Position numbers and translations under genes: made by a program | Part shown: in pieces, positions 10,688-18,112 of the stretch | Layout: every line of letters begins with the position of its first letter | Numbering within the stretch: position 1 is the first letter of the stretch | Notes under the pieces: generated by a model | What the model was told of the DNA's origin: nothing | What the model saw: the letters and a program-made list of their open reading frames with translations, nothing else | Databases searched by the model: none | Assembly (NCBI GenBank): GCA_016874035.1 | Contig: VGVM01000008.1 | Location: forward strand, 1-60,279 | DNA: 60,279 nt | Source: Gemmatimonadota bacterium | GTDB taxonomy: Bacteria > Gemmatimonadota > Gemmatimonadetes > Gemmatimonadales > Gemmatimonadaceae | Reading direction: 5' to 3'

Positions 10688-12022
10688 TTAACGATAGCGA
10701 CCCAGCATCCCGGGTGGGAGTCGTCCGCCGCCGCCGGCTGAGGCCTTCTTCATCATCTTCTGCATCTCGCGGAACTGCTCGAGGAAGCGGTTCACGTCGC
10801 TGATCGGGCGGCCGGCGCCCTTGGCGATTCGCGCGCGACGGGAACCGTTGATGATCTCGGGCTTCTTGCGCTCCTCGGCGGTCATGGAGAGCACGATCGC
10901 CTCGGCGTGCTTGAGGCGCTTCGGGTCCGAGTTGACCTGACTCAGCATCTTCGCGTTGACACCGGGGAGCATCTTGAGGATGCCTTCGATCGGGCCGAGT
11001 CGCTGGATCTGCTTCATGGAGGCCAGGAAGTCCTGCAGGTCGAGGCCTTCCTTCCGGACCTTCTTCTCGAGGCGCTTCGCCTCGTCGGCATCGAGCGCGG
11101 ACTGCGCCTTCTCGACCAGCGACAGGACGTCACCCTGCTGCAGGATGCGTCCCGCCATGCGGTCCGGATGGAACTCTTCCAGCGCATCGGGCTTCTCGCC
11201 GGTGCCGATGTACTTGATCGGCTTCTTCGTGACGCCGTAGATCGAGAGCGCCGCACCACCGCGCGCATCGCCGTCGAGCTTGGTCAGGATGACGCCGGTG
11301 AGGCCAAGCGCTTCGTCGAAGCCCTGCGCGATCTTCACGGCTTCCTGGCCGGTCATGCCGTCGGCGACGAGGAGGATCTCGTCCGGTTTCGCGACTTCCT
11401 TGAGCCGCCGGAGCTCGTCCATCATCGGCTCATCCACCTGGATGCGGCCGGCGGTGTCGAGGAGGACGACGCGGTCGCGTTCGCGGCGCGCGACGTCGAG
11501 GCCGGCGCGCACGATGCGGTCAACGTCCTGGGTGTCGCGGTCGGCGAACACGGGGACGTTCAGGTCGCGGCCAAGCGTTTCCAGCTGGTCAATGGCCGCG
11601 GGGCGATACACGTCGAGCGCGATCAGTCGCACCTGACGGCCCTCGCCCTGCAGGCGCCGGGCGAGCTTCGCGGCGGTCGTGGTCTTGCCGGAGCCCTGCA
11701 AGCCGACGAGCATGACGACGGTCGGCGGGAGCGACGACATCCGCAGCCCTTCGCGCCGCTCGCCGAGCAGCACGACGAGTTCGTCGTACACGATCTTGAC
11801 GAGCTGCTGTGCGGGCGAGACGGTCTTGATCTGGAGGACGCCAACGGCGCGCTTCTCAACGCGTTCCAGGAACTCGCGGCTCAGCTGGAAGTTGACGTCG
11901 GCCTCAAGGAGGACGCGGCGCACTTCGCGCAGGCCTTCCTTGATATCCGATTCGGTGAGGACGCCCCTGCCCCGGAGGCGGGCAAACGTGGTGCTGAGTT
12001 TTTCCTGAAGGTCGGCAAACAT
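10688..12022 (-). CDS. ffh: Signal recognition particle protein Ffh (SRP54)
   Basis: 444 residues, the typical length. Ffh is the GTPase of the signal recognition particle that binds 4.5S RNA and signal sequences. The N-domain starts MFADLQEKLSTTFARLRGRG. The G-domain has P-loop GLQGSGKTTTAAKLA, DVYRPAAIDQL, LLDTAGR, and TKLDGDARGGAALS. The M-domain includes the RNA-binding stretch SRRARIAKGAG and a Met-rich tail (MQKMMKKASAGG). It is the first gene of the leftward translation block and diverges from lon. Confidence 0.97.
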   Translation of the reverse strand: MFADLQEKLSTTFARLRGRGVLTESDIKEGLREVRRVLLEADVNFQLSREFLERVEKRAVGVLQIKTVSPAQQLVKIVYDELVVLLGERREGLRMSSLPPTVVMLVGLQGSGKTTTAAKLARRLQGEGRQVRLIALDVYRPAAIDQLETLGRDLNVPVFADRDTQDVDRIVRAGLDVARRERDRVVLLDTAGRIQVDEPMMDELRRLKEVAKPDEILLVADGMTGQEAVKIAQGFDEALGLTGVILTKLDGDARGGAALSIYGVTKKPIKYIGTGEKPDALEEFHPDRMAGRILQQGDVLSLVEKAQSALDADEAKRLEKKVRKEGLDLQDFLASMKQIQRLGPIEGILKMLPGVNAKMLSQVNSDPKRLKHAEAIVLSMTAEERKKPEIINGSRRARIAKGAGRPISDVNRFLEQFREMQKMMKKASAGGGGRLPPGMLGRYR

Positions 12023-12318: not shown

Positions 12319-14778
12319 GTGGCTGACTCAGGGAATCCAACGATCGCCCTCCCGCTGCTGGCTCTCCGCAGCACGATCGTGTTCCCCCGTGCCCGAATCG
12401 CCGTGCAGGTGGGGACGGCCGAGAACCTCGCGCTCCTGGATGGCCTGCCCGCTGAGGGCGCCCAAGTTGCCGCGGTCGTCGCGCCGAGTGCCACCGAATC
12501 GGCGGGCGCCAGTGCACTGATCGGCCGTATCGCGGTCGTCGCGCGCGTCGCCGACCGTCAAGCGGCAGGCGCGGGAACGATGCAGGTCACGCTGACCGGA
12601 GACCGTCGCGTCCGAATCGTCGGCATATCGGACGGCGCCGCGTTTCCGCTCGCGAGCATCGAGGAGCTTGGCGAGGCGCCGGTGGACTTGGCGGAGCACA
12701 CGGAAGCGGTCGCTCGCCTGATTCGCGCCGCGGAGCAGTTGGCCGAGGTGCGCGAGTCCTTCCCGGCGGAGGTGCCGGGGCTGCTCGCGCGTCACACGCG
12801 AGACCTCGCGGCGCTGACTGACGTCGCGGCGTCGTACGCGGGGCTGCGCGTGGGCGAACGCGACGAACTCGTGCAGTGCACGGACCCCGCGGTTCGCCTG
12901 TCGCGACTGGTCGCACGCTTCGAGCGCGAGGTGGCGCGGGCCGAGGTCGTCGAGGACGTCGAACGGCGCGCGGACGCCAGCGTACAGCAGCACCAACGTG
13001 AGTTCTTCCTGCGCCAGCAGCTGCAGGCGATTCGCGCCGAGCTGGGCGAGTCCGACGGCACCGCCGACGACGCCGACGACTTGGCGCGCAAGGTCGCCGC
13101 GGCAGGACTGCCTGAGCGCGTGGCACAAGAGGCGCGTCGCGAAACCGAGCGGCTTCGCTCGCTTCCAGCGGCCTCGAGCGAACACCAGGTGCTTCGGAAC
13201 TACCTCGATTGGCTGCTGGCACTGCCCTGGACCCGGACCAGCGGCACACCGCTGGCGATCGACCGCGTCGAACGCGCACTCGACGAGCGCCACTACGGAC
13301 TGGAAGAAGCGAAGGAGCGAATCCTCGAGTACCTGTCGGTGCGACAGCTGCTTGGCGAGAGCCGTCGCGACGTGCATGGGCCGATCCTGTGCTTCGTTGG
13401 CCCGCCGGGCACAGGGAAGACTTCGCTCGGTGAAGCGATCGCATCGAGCATCGGCCGCTCGTTCCATCGCATCTCGGTTGGCGGGGTGCGGGACGAGGCG
13501 GAAGTGCGCGGACATCGGCGCACGTACGTGGGTTCGATGCCGGGCCTCGTCGTGCAGGCGCTGCGCCGGGCGGGCGCGCGCGATGCCGTGCTGATGATCG
13601 ACGAGATCGACAAGATGTCAGGCGGCGGGCCGGGTGGCGATCCGCTCGCCGCCATGCTCGAAGTGCTGGACCCCGCGCAGAACGCCTCGTTCGTGGATCA
13701 CTACCTGAACGTGCCGTTCGATTTGTCGCAGGTGCTGTTCATCTGCACGGCGAACTCGTTGCTCGACATCCCGCCGGCGCTGCGCGACCGACTGGAAGTG
13801 ATCCGGATCGCGGGGTACACGGTCGAGGAAAAAGTGGAGATCGCCTGGCGGTACCTGCTGCCGCGACTCCTCGGCGAGCACGGGATCGCGGAACTCGACC
13901 TCCAGTTCACGGATGAGGCGCTCTCGACGATCTCGAGCCGCTACTCGCGCGAGGCGGGACTGCGCGGGTTCGAGCGCAACCTTGCGGCGATCATGCGTCG
14001 CCGTGCGCGACGGAAGGCGCAGGGTGAGACGGGCGCGTGGGTCGTGGACAGCGCGCGCATCGAGGACATCCTCGGCGCGCCCCGCTATGCCGCCGAGGAG
14101 CTCGAACTCGAGCCCGAGATCGGCACGGTGACCGGACTCGCCTGGACCGCGGCCGGCGGTGAGCTCATGACGATCGAGGCCCTGCGCATGCCGGGCACGG
14201 GCAAGCTCCACGTGACCGGCCAACTGGGCGACATCATGCGTGAATCCGTGGACGCGGCCTGCTCGTATGTGCGATCCATGGCGCGCGCACTCCAGATCGT
14301 GGATGCCGAACTCAAGTCCACGGACCTGCATATCCACTTTCCGGCCGGTTCGGTGCCGAAGGACGGTCCGAGCGCCGGCGTCGCCGTGACGCTGGCGATC
14401 GCCAGCGTCATGAGTCGTCGGCCGGTGCGCCGTGATGTCGCCGTCACGGGTGAGGTCACCCTGCGCGGCAGGGTGCTGGAGATCGGCGGCCTCAAGGAAA
14501 AAGTCCTTGCCGCGCATCGGGCGGGACTCCACGAAGTGGTCGTACCCGCGGCGAACGCGAAGGACTTGCGCGACGTTCCGGCGGGCATCCGCGACCGCGT
14601 GCGGATCACGCTGGCCCGCCGCATGGACGAAGTGTTCGCGGCGATGCTCCTCCCGCGCACGGAAGTCGCCCGGCGGGCGGACCTCCGCCTGGTGGATGAC
14701 AGCGGCGCCGGGCGTCCGTCGGCTGAACAACGGCGCGATCCGGCGGCGAGCGACGAAGAGGACGTGTGGCCGACCTGA
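12319..14778 (+). CDS. lon: ATP-dependent Lon protease
   Basis: 819 residues from a GTG start. The N-terminal substrate-binding LON domain spans ~1-200 (LPLLALRSTIVFPRARIAV). The AAA+ module follows, with Walker A GPPGTGKTSLGEAI at about residue 361, Walker B VLMIDEIDKM and sensor residues. The C-terminal S16 protease domain has catalytic Ser685 in DGPSAGVA and Lys728 in GGLKEKVLAAH, 43 residues apart as in E. coli Lon. It degrades misfolded and regulatory cytoplasmic proteins. Its last codons overlap the following DUF445 gene by 13 bp. Confidence 0.96.
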   Translation: MADSGNPTIALPLLALRSTIVFPRARIAVQVGTAENLALLDGLPAEGAQVAAVVAPSATESAGASALIGRIAVVARVADRQAAGAGTMQVTLTGDRRVRIVGISDGAAFPLASIEELGEAPVDLAEHTEAVARLIRAAEQLAEVRESFPAEVPGLLARHTRDLAALTDVAASYAGLRVGERDELVQCTDPAVRLSRLVARFEREVARAEVVEDVERRADASVQQHQREFFLRQQLQAIRAELGESDGTADDADDLARKVAAAGLPERVAQEARRETERLRSLPAASSEHQVLRNYLDWLLALPWTRTSGTPLAIDRVERALDERHYGLEEAKERILEYLSVRQLLGESRRDVHGPILCFVGPPGTGKTSLGEAIASSIGRSFHRISVGGVRDEAEVRGHRRTYVGSMPGLVVQALRRAGARDAVLMIDEIDKMSGGGPGGDPLAAMLEVLDPAQNASFVDHYLNVPFDLSQVLFICTANSLLDIPPALRDRLEVIRIAGYTVEEKVEIAWRYLLPRLLGEHGIAELDLQFTDEALSTISSRYSREAGLRGFERNLAAIMRRRARRKAQGETGAWVVDSARIEDILGAPRYAAEELELEPEIGTVTGLAWTAAGGELMTIEALRMPGTGKLHVTGQLGDIMRESVDAACSYVRSMARALQIVDAELKSTDLHIHFPAGSVPKDGPSAGVAVTLAIASVMSRRPVRRDVAVTGEVTLRGRVLEIGGLKEKVLAAHRAGLHEVVVPAANAKDLRDVPAGIRDRVRITLARRMDEVFAAMLLPRTEVARRADLRLVDDSGAGRPSAEQRRDPAASDEEDVWPT

Positions 14779-15890
14779 GCCCGGCCTGGGTTCAGTTCCT
14801 GCTGAACGTGGTGGTAGGCACGATCGCCGGCGGGGTCACGAACGCCGTCGCGGTCTGGATGCTCTTTCACCCGCACGAGAAGCGGTTCGGGTTCCACGGT
14901 GCGATCCCGAAGAACAAGGCGCGCCTCGCGAAGAGCGTGGGTCGCACGGTCGGGGAACGGTTGCTCACGGCCGACGACATCATTCGCGAGCTGCATGCGA
15001 CCGGACTGCGGGACACGATCGACGCGAAGCTGGAGACCTATTTCGCCCAGCTGATGGAGCGCGAGTGGGGTTCGCTGCGATCACTGCTGCCTGAAACCGT
15101 CGGCGCCGAGCTCGAACGAACGCTCGCCGGGCTTGGCCAGCCGGTTGCCGAGGCGTGGGCCCGGGAAGTGCATTCGCCCGCCTTCGAGCAACGCATGCGC
15201 GGCTTTGTCGAGCGCGTGCGCGGTGAGCTGGCGTTCCTCCCGGTTGGCGCCGTGCTGACGCCCGAGCGCCAGGCCGAGCTTGCTTCGCAGGCCGCGGAGA
15301 TCGCGTCGGCGGCGATCGCCGAAGCGAGAAAGGAGGAAGGTCGCTCGGCGCGTGCAAGGATCGGCGATATGGTGCTGCGGCTTGCCGGCGCGGACCGCAC
15401 GCGTGCGTTCGTGGAGAAGTCGGTCCACGAGGCGCTGGGCAAGGCCGGGTCACGCACGTGGGGCGAGCTGCTCGAGCCGGTCTCGGATGACGAGATGGTG
15501 CGCTGGCTGCTCGACGCCGCGCGTTCACCGCGCGCGGCCGAGCTCGCGGTTGGCGCGGCGGGAAGCCTGGCGCGAGGGATCCTCGAGCAGCCGATCGGCC
15601 GCGTCGGCCGCTTCCTGCCGGCCGATGCGGCGAGTCGCATGGCCGCTGTCTCGGCGCCGGCGCTCTGGGACTGGCTCGTCGGGCAGATCCCGGGATTCCT
15701 CGACACGCTCGACGTCCAAGGCATGGTCGAGCGGAAGGTCCTGGGGTTCAGCACGCAGCGACTCGAAGAGCTGGTGCGAGACGTCACCCAGAAGGAACTG
15801 GACGTGATCGTGAACCTCGGCTACGTGCTCGGCGCGATCATTGGCGCGCTGACCTTCGCGATCGGGCGGCTGGCCGGCTCAGGCCAGTAG
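14766..15890 (+). CDS. DUF445-family membrane protein
   Basis: 374 residues from GTG 14766, overlapping the end of lon. The N-terminus has one hydrophobic segment with the DUF445 hallmark GGVTNAVAVWMLFHPHEKRF and GAIPKNKARLAKSVG. The middle is a long, charged, mostly helical region, and a second membrane segment closes the protein (LGYVLGAIIGALTFAIG). The family's biochemical role is unknown. The translational overlap suggests co-expression with lon; any link to envelope proteolysis would be inference. Confidence 0.85.
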   Translation: MADLSPAWVQFLLNVVVGTIAGGVTNAVAVWMLFHPHEKRFGFHGAIPKNKARLAKSVGRTVGERLLTADDIIRELHATGLRDTIDAKLETYFAQLMEREWGSLRSLLPETVGAELERTLAGLGQPVAEAWAREVHSPAFEQRMRGFVERVRGELAFLPVGAVLTPERQAELASQAAEIASAAIAEARKEEGRSARARIGDMVLRLAGADRTRAFVEKSVHEALGKAGSRTWGELLEPVSDDEMVRWLLDAARSPRAAELAVGAAGSLARGILEQPIGRVGRFLPADAASRMAAVSAPALWDWLVGQIPGFLDTLDVQGMVERKVLGFSTQRLEELVRDVTQKELDVIVNLGYVLGAIIGALTFAIGRLAGSGQ

Positions 15891-15926: not shown

Positions 15927-16793
15927 CTAGTAGGTCGCCGTCGTGATCACGCGCCCGCTGCCTTGGCCGCCGCCATTACCGGACCCAGTGAAGAACCCGG
16001 TGTACACAACCGGCGGCTTCCCGCGCATGTTGACCGTCACAACGTAGTTCGTCTTGACCGCGGCGCATGCCGACCAGTAGTTCACGCGCACGAGGTACTC
16101 ACCGCGAGGCGCGATGAGGCCGCTGGACCAGAAGATGTTCTCCGCACGCGGACCATCGGCCCCGCAGCCCGCGTTCGAGTCGAGGTCGAGCTGGCCGCCC
16201 GATACGGCGATCTTGTGGCCGTAGAACAACTCCTCGCCGAGCGGATCCACGACATGCAGGTCCACATCTGCGGGTGTGTCCCACGTGATGTTCACCTGGA
16301 CATCGCCAGTCCCGACCGAGATGATGCTGACGTTCGAGCGCTGGTATGAGCCGAAACTCGAACCGACCCCCGAGCCGACACGGAGCTCGAACACCGGCGT
16401 CGGAATTGCCTGGCCGAACACGAGCAGGATGTCCACGCTCGTCGTTGGCGCGGGCAGCGTAAGCTCCCAGTAATCCTCGAGCCCCGGCACGACGACGTTG
16501 AGCTTGTTAAACGCCGCGGCCGAGGTCGCCTTCACCTGTACCGTGCCGCCGAGCAGCACCAGTTGCGGAATCGGGGCATTGATGACCGGACCTTAGCCTT
16601 CTGCGGGCGCGGTCCCCGCGCGCAATGCCGCCCGGGCATCGCCCGCGAGCGTTTCGACCGAGGAGATGTAGTTGGCGATGGTCGGCTCCTCGCTGGCGAG
16701 CGGCTGCTGCCACTCGATGCAGGAGACCGACGCGATCAGCAGCGCGAGTGCCGCCGTCACGCCACGCCTGTTCCGTTCGTTGTGCTGCGCCAT
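15927..16793 (-). pseudogene. DUF2135-type lipoprotein gene interrupted by an in-frame TAA
   Basis: Two segments lie in the same frame. The upstream one (16593-16793, ATG with a GGAGG site just ahead) encodes a lipoprotein signal ending in lipobox ASVSC, then ~45 residues of mature sequence to ...GTAPAEG. The TAA at 16593-16595 follows. After it the frame stays open (GPVINAPIPQLVLLGGTVQV...) to 15927. That body carries DUF2135-like features: TWDTPADVDLHVVDPLGEE, GGQLDLDSNAGC and ENIFW followed by GEYLVRVNYWSAC. Reinitiation at GTG 16559 would give a 210-residue protein with no export signal. Nonsense mutation, assembly error or readthrough are all possible. Confidence 0.75.
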
Positions 16794-16808
16794 CACGCCT
16801 CCTCCACT

Positions 16809-18089
16809 CTACGGTGCGCCGCCAAGCCGCACCCTCGCAAGGTCCACCAGTTTCGTGGGCGCGCCCGCCGGCGCATCCACGTACAACACCGCTGCCCGTC
16901 CCTGCACCGTCACCGCCGTCAACTCGTGCTGGCGACCCTTTCCGGTCAGGCGCAGCACGCGTCCTTCCCCGATCTCGTCGTCGTCCCGCTCGGCCTTCAC
17001 GGCCACCGCACGGGCGAGGAGGTCCCGGAACTCCGCTGCCTCGAACTGGGAATCCCAGACCGTAAGCCAGGCCAGTGCCGCACCGCCACCCACGCTCACG
17101 ACATAGAACCGATCGCCGGCCCAACCGTCCGCCCCACGCGCTGCGGACTCGGCATTCCGAAGGAACTGATGCAACACCAGCCTCGTCTCGAACTCGCCAA
17201 GCCCGCCTTCGTACACGATCGACCCGCTGGCCGGGCGTGGCAACGCGACCGATACCGGCAGCTCGAGCGAATCGAGCAACCGACCCGGGTGCAACACTTG
17301 CTCCGTTGACACCGGCAGCGCAGTGAGCGGCGACACACCCGGCCGACGCGCCTTGAACTGCCGTACGAACTCCGCTCCGCTCAGATACGGAAACAGCAGT
17401 GTTTCCTGGATGAACATGGGTGCCGTCGCAAAGACCGGCATCATGGCTTGCGCATCCCGGATTGTCTGCCGCACCCGATCCCAACCGCCGGGCATGCGCG
17501 CCGCAAGGCTCGCGCCGCCCAACATGACACTCAACTGCTCATAGGTGGCCCCTCCCTCGATGACCGCCTGGGCGGCCATCACCCGATCGTTGTCGTGCCT
17601 GAGCTTCGCGATCGAGTCCAGCGGGAGGTACTGATCCTGCAACGCATGAACCAACTCATGCGTGATGGTGACGTTCAGCACTTCAGGCGGCGGGGCTGCT
17701 CCGCCCTCGCCGCTGACCACATAGAGGACTTTCGTGGCAGGGTCGTAGTAACCGACCACCTGCTCCCCGAGGAGCTTGAGCAGGAACTCGCGAAGCTCGA
17801 GCGAGTCGGGAAGCACGCCAAACAGCTTGTACGCCCGCTCCTGGCCGGCCAGCTCGAGGGCAGGCTGGTCCTCATTGAACTTGGTCTCGAGGAAGGCCCG
17901 CAACTCGTCGCGGGTCCGGGTCTCGACCTTTGGCGGCGACTTGAACTTGAGTCCCGTAGCGCCCTCGACCATGGGGATCGCGCGCGCCACTTCGCGCGCG
18001 TAGGGACCGCTTCCCGCCGGCGGCGAGTCAGCGCACCCGAGGAGCGAGGCCGCGGAAGCCAACAACAACAACGAGTGGTGGGAGGTCAG
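16809..18089 (-). CDS. Lipoprotein with an HELVH zinc-metalloprotease-like motif, function unknown
   Basis: About 426 residues, ending at TAG 16809. The N-terminus carries a hydrophobic run and lipobox LLGC. The core has TITHELVHALQDQY (HExxH-type zinc site), preceded by VGYYDPATKVLYVVSG and followed by VIEGGATYEQL, where Glu could be the third ligand. The rest is an alpha/beta domain ending in a probable LRLTG...VLYVDAPAG module. The start is unclear. No ATG or GTG exists near the signal; candidates are CTG 18089 or one of four TTG codons at 18060-18071, within a CAA-repeat stretch. Substrate unknown. It follows the prepilin peptidase gene on the same strand. Confidence 0.75.
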   Translation of the reverse strand: MTSHHSLLLLASAASLLGCADSPPAGSGPYAREVARAIPMVEGATGLKFKSPPKVETRTRDELRAFLETKFNEDQPALELAGQERAYKLFGVLPDSLELREFLLKLLGEQVVGYYDPATKVLYVVSGEGGAAPPPEVLNVTITHELVHALQDQYLPLDSIAKLRHDNDRVMAAQAVIEGGATYEQLSVMLGGASLAARMPGGWDRVRQTIRDAQAMMPVFATAPMFIQETLLFPYLSGAEFVRQFKARRPGVSPLTALPVSTEQVLHPGRLLDSLELPVSVALPRPASGSIVYEGGLGEFETRLVLHQFLRNAESAARGADGWAGDRFYVVSVGGGAALAWLTVWDSQFEAAEFRDLLARAVAVKAERDDDEIGEGRVLRLTGKGRQHELTAVTVQGRAAVLYVDAPAGAPTKLVDLARVRLGGAP

Positions 18090-18112
18090 TGTTCGGTTTC
18101 CGGTGGAGGTGA
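18075..18112. repeat. ACCGAACACTGACC-type spacer repeat upstream of the metalloprotease lipoprotein
   Basis: On the minus strand the stretch reads ACCGGAAACCGAACACTGAC followed by CTCCCACCACTC, similar in composition and order to the spacers behind rnhB (7829-7849) and trmD (9003-9024). It lies just after the prepilin peptidase stop and covers the region in which the next start codon must fall. Confidence 0.45.

Follow-up and report, generated by a model that had tools for sequence, protein, structure and literature searches.

Belinky et al. (2021, PMC7918605) report that in-frame stop codons occur widely among conserved bacterial genes and that most of them do not persist for long, and the stop described here, in a lipoprotein gene within the window (the whole 60,279-nt stretch of Gemmatimonadota DNA that we analysed), fits this class. 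Like the genes of that study, the window gene carries a single stop and has a dN/dS well below 1; unlike them, it acquired stops separately in three lineages and suffered deletions in others, suggesting that the gene is dispensable. The second described system to which this locus compares is TerD, whose calcium-binding fold (3ibz and 2kxt) aligns with residues 95–221 of the body of the protein, where many Asp and Asn residues are invariant. In contrast to TerD, the protein is predicted to be lipid-anchored at the surface and to have an extra N-terminal beta domain. We think that the gene is probably a young nonsense allele (an incipient pseudogene) of a dispensable and often-lost Gemmatimonadota lipoprotein, the premature stop being most likely the mark of a young broken gene rather than a recoding signal. 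The features of the locus are as follows.

14766 to 15890, plus strand: DUF445 gene, convergent with the body and lying downstream of it (PF04286, 94.1 bits).
15927 to 16592, minus strand: body, 221 codons and a terminal TAG, predicted to form two beta domains, of which the C-terminal is TerD-like/DUF2135-like (from homologues, alignment, structure model and comparison, and a Pfam match below cut-off).
16593 to 16595, minus strand: in-frame TAA in a variable linker, where relatives have sense codons.
16596 to 16796, minus strand: signal peptide leader, lipobox Cys and stalk (from the translation, and from the invariant Cys and CIEW motif common to homologues).
16809 to 18110, minus strand: upstream metallopeptidase-like gene, a conserved same-strand neighbour in 17 of the 18 genomes of the genus; its conserved C-terminal part was used.

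The minus-strand frame opens at ATG 16793 or GTG 16796, with a Shine–Dalgarno-like GGAGG directly upstream, and the leader and stalk occupy 66–67 codons, depending on the start chosen, ahead of the TAA at 16593–16595. The conserved body begins right after this stop, and the same frame remains open for 221 codons (15930–16592) to a TAG at 15927–15929. An earlier note on this DNA had described a signal/lipobox segment and a body segment that share a frame and are separated by a single TAA, and both its coordinates and its stop are correct; the body length of 210 residues that it gave holds when counted from the first GTG past the stop (16559), but not from the stop itself, where the open stretch is 221 codons. 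Judged by eye, the N-terminus has the hallmarks of a lipoprotein, i.e. a basic n-region, a hydrophobic h-region, and a lipobox whose last residue is an invariant Cys (window sequence, NERNRRGVTAALALLIASVSC). The window lipobox reads SVSC-IEW, with an atypical Ser at −3; its Cys recurs in homologues, and a CIEW-type motif is found in the window's own genus and the sister genus. The G+C content by codon position is of the coding type in both halves, at 0.67/0.56/0.88 for the leader and stalk and 0.62/0.48/0.84 for the body. The upstream metallopeptidase-like protein matches NF038145 (Hvo_1808 family surface protein) below threshold, scoring 105.9 bits where the cut-off is 200, and no Pfam family at E ≤ 0.01.

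With the body alone as query, 14 of the 61 genomes in the relatives set gave a match, as did 22 of the 179 in the family set; the window's own genome is included in both figures and contains no paralogue at E ≤ 0.001 that could compensate for the broken copy. The named relatives are Gemmatimonadota metagenome-assembled genomes. Leader, lipobox, stalk and body lie in one open frame in eight own-genus genomes (G003, G005, G006, G007, G010, G012, G016, and G017), and eight of the nine homologue-bearing genomes of the sister genus read straight through, including G029, in which a contig end falls inside the body. The distant homologues from the order and class, a few of which are cut by contig ends, have no premature stop in the stretches read, and most carry a leader with a Cys. 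In the homologue alignment the window stop falls in a variable linker; the window gene has a disabling TAA where its orthologues are open, as is expected of a pseudogene. Since the same-genus homologues align across the stop as a single ORF and both halves have coding-type G+C, the arrangement is not due to chance, and on this comparison of sequences the two ORFs are one broken lipoprotein gene. Two separate genes were ruled out, because relatives read through and no Shine–Dalgarno sequence precedes the first GTG of the body in the window, and so was a frameshift, because the halves are in the same frame and no shift is needed to align them to homologues. The split of one lipoprotein gene by one in-frame stop, as the earlier note proposed, is therefore supported by homologues open across the stop in both genera; the intact full-length copies that it suggested looking for are present (eight in each genus), and they form one ORF rather than always two genes, each with its own signal.

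In the window's own genus, we counted eight intact genes, two with nonsense codons (the TAA in the window and a TGA in G004), one diverged (G013), one with an in-frame deletion, five truncated, and one absent. The TGA of G004 lies at the Trp of the CIEW motif, and in the sister genus G149 carries a TAG in the same motif region, two codons past the site of the TGA. In G149 (L024, upstream of 818), an in-frame GTG beyond the TAG is immediately preceded by GGAGGA, and internal initiation is conceivable there. For the genomes with no detected body, we examined the slot beside the conserved upstream gene. In four of them (G001, G009, G011, and G014), the leader and lipobox are retained and the reading frame then passes into the convergent DUF445 gene, rejoining at its 3′ end; this shared truncation is probably a single event. 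The short ORFs left by this deletion (L099, L094, L092, and L098, respectively) lie just downstream of the metallopeptidase-like gene, encode a signal and a lipobox with LGAC followed by WDP, and overlap the 3′ end of the DUF445 gene. In G008, only part of the stalk and ~10 residues of the body are left and the leader is lost, while in G015 (L014, C7) ~86 residues covering the DUF2135-like half are deleted in frame and the frame is still open. Neither the upstream gene nor the lipoprotein was found in G002 by these searches. The tree of the upstream gene calls for a minimum of five transitions between the intact and broken states, with the diverged G013 counted as broken. All three nonsense codons (TAA, TGA, and TAG) fall within the 43-codon stalk between lipobox and body, a segment that accounts for 18.5% of the single substitutions that would create a stop in intact genes (p about 0.006 for three of three, a post hoc value with n = 3).

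The base rate of internal stops was drawn from the neighbouring regions of the relatives. Among 179 instances of twelve neighbouring genes in the same genomes there was one clear internal in-frame stop, compared with three in 19 lipoprotein genes (Fisher p 0.003, post hoc and with gene lengths unmatched). The remaining stops reported in neighbouring genes were at termini or in over-extended starts. The sole clear case is a purine nucleoside phosphorylase homologue in G013 (L059, C79:1001-21000, about position 15104, minus strand), with a single in-frame TAG in an otherwise intact frame. An all-against-all stop scan was set aside in favour of these counts, as it was too noisy and its queries included antisense shadow ORFs. 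The same gene has thus been broken repeatedly and independently in relatives, which favours a recent nonsense mutation, one of the three readings offered by the earlier note.

The body following the stop is still conserved, with a slight rise in rate. Its dN/dS is 0.16 between the window and its nearest relative, G010, and 0.22 between the window and G004, and it ranges from 0.12 to 0.21 in the other comparisons within the clade. The window differs at one of 76 deeply invariant body positions. The ratio of the body branch to the upstream-gene branch is 0.90 in the window (0.32/0.36), 0.57 in G010 and G003, and 0.41 in G004. Purifying selection has acted on the window body through most of its history, which means either that the stop is recent or that the body is still in use. 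The young nonsense allele has points against it in these data: the body shows little decay, which fits residual use equally well; compared with the neighbouring gene, its branch is lengthened only modestly; and the stops cluster in the stalk, which is unexpected under plain loss of function.

A body with no decay and a normal coding composition, as in an intact gene, would also be seen if the stop were a sequencing, assembly or consensus error and the organism had a sense codon at 16593–16595. The assembly is in 191 contigs and the named relatives are metagenome-assembled genomes; yet stops interrupt the same segment of the gene in two separately assembled genomes, internal stops almost never occur in neighbouring genes, and the frame shows no further lesion, so we regard an error as unlikely. 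It is highly improbable, in our view, that the body continues to be made by stop readthrough or internal initiation, with the stop lowering expression rather than abolishing it. Constraint on the body in all three stop-bearing genes is what this explanation would predict, and in-frame stops with low dN/dS have been reported in bacteria (Belinky et al. 2021, PMC7918605). However, the codon and the site of the stop differ among the three genes and most relatives lack one, none of the 43 tRNA genes detected in the genome has a suppressor anticodon, the RNA at the stop shows no unusual fold (z-score 0.45), and a body started at the first GTG past the stop, besides having no Shine–Dalgarno sequence ahead of it, would have no signal peptide. 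Programmed readthrough, also raised by the earlier note, finds no support in these results. It calls for a stop and context conserved among orthologues, and here codon and position vary by lineage; TAA also ends other predicted genes of the window, e.g. the SRP54 gene at 10688–12022.

Another explanation is that the leader, lipobox and stalk are maintained as a small lipoprotein, truncation after the lipobox being tolerated or selected in several lineages. With three of three nonsense codons in the stalk, and with leader and lipobox retained in four body-less genomes at a leader dN/dS of 0.15–0.33, the data are partly consistent with such a product; if it exists, it would illustrate the reduction of a large lipoprotein to a short lipidated peptide. 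But the leader dN/dS rests on about 40 codons and is equally low in intact genes (0.16–0.48), G004 would have just a three-residue tail after the Cys position, G008 has lost the leader, and the bodies of the stop-bearing genes are still conserved, which a small lipoprotein does not need. We therefore consider a maintained fragment quite unlikely, and a young nonsense allele remains the reading that we prefer.

We modelled the body with AlphaFold2 from the window sequence and 16 relatives, which gave two beta domains (mean pLDDT 74.7, pTM 0.70). With VIA-align, the alignment of residues 95–221 with TerD has a Z of 9.2 to 3ibz and 7.4 to 2kxt, with an rmsd of 3.3–3.6 over 107–110 residues and an identity of 14% or less. 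Foldseek returned no match to the model at E ≤ 0.001, and sequence search gave no meaningful solved homologue. The acidic and Asn residues D109, D111, D136, D138, N140, D146, and E151 are invariant in the body alignment. The lipoprotein is possibly a calcium-binding, TerD-like/DUF2135-like protein, with a putative calcium-binding domain at the surface. The earlier description of the body as DUF2135-like stands as to likeness, through a weak match to PF09906 that spans 15 of its 48 positions and lies in the body's C-terminal part, but the score (16.4 bits, E 0.0098) falls short of the 22 bits that the curated cut-off sets for DUF2135 proper. Three of 17 members of the lipoprotein family match PF09906 at E ≤ 1, and a DUF2135 search of the whole genome gave no match at E ≤ 0.001. 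Our literature search found no paper naming DUF2135 and none combining any two of YfaP, TerD, and DUF2135.

The normal protein would be held on the membrane through its lipid anchor, with the TerD-like, possibly calcium-binding domain exposed. In the window, translation would halt after the stalk and yield at most a short lipidated fragment of 66–67 residues with no exported body, and the downstream half of the gene would be expected to decay. The recurrent loss may reflect dispensability, or selection against a surface protein, e.g. by phage. The family itself, with two predicted beta domains and a TerD-like C-terminal part, has no name above cut-off in Pfam or NCBIfam. In summary, the locus offers a worked example of how an uncultured lineage repeatedly loses a surface lipoprotein: a single syntenic slot shows the gene intact, interrupted by nonsense codons, partly deleted, or reduced to a remnant.
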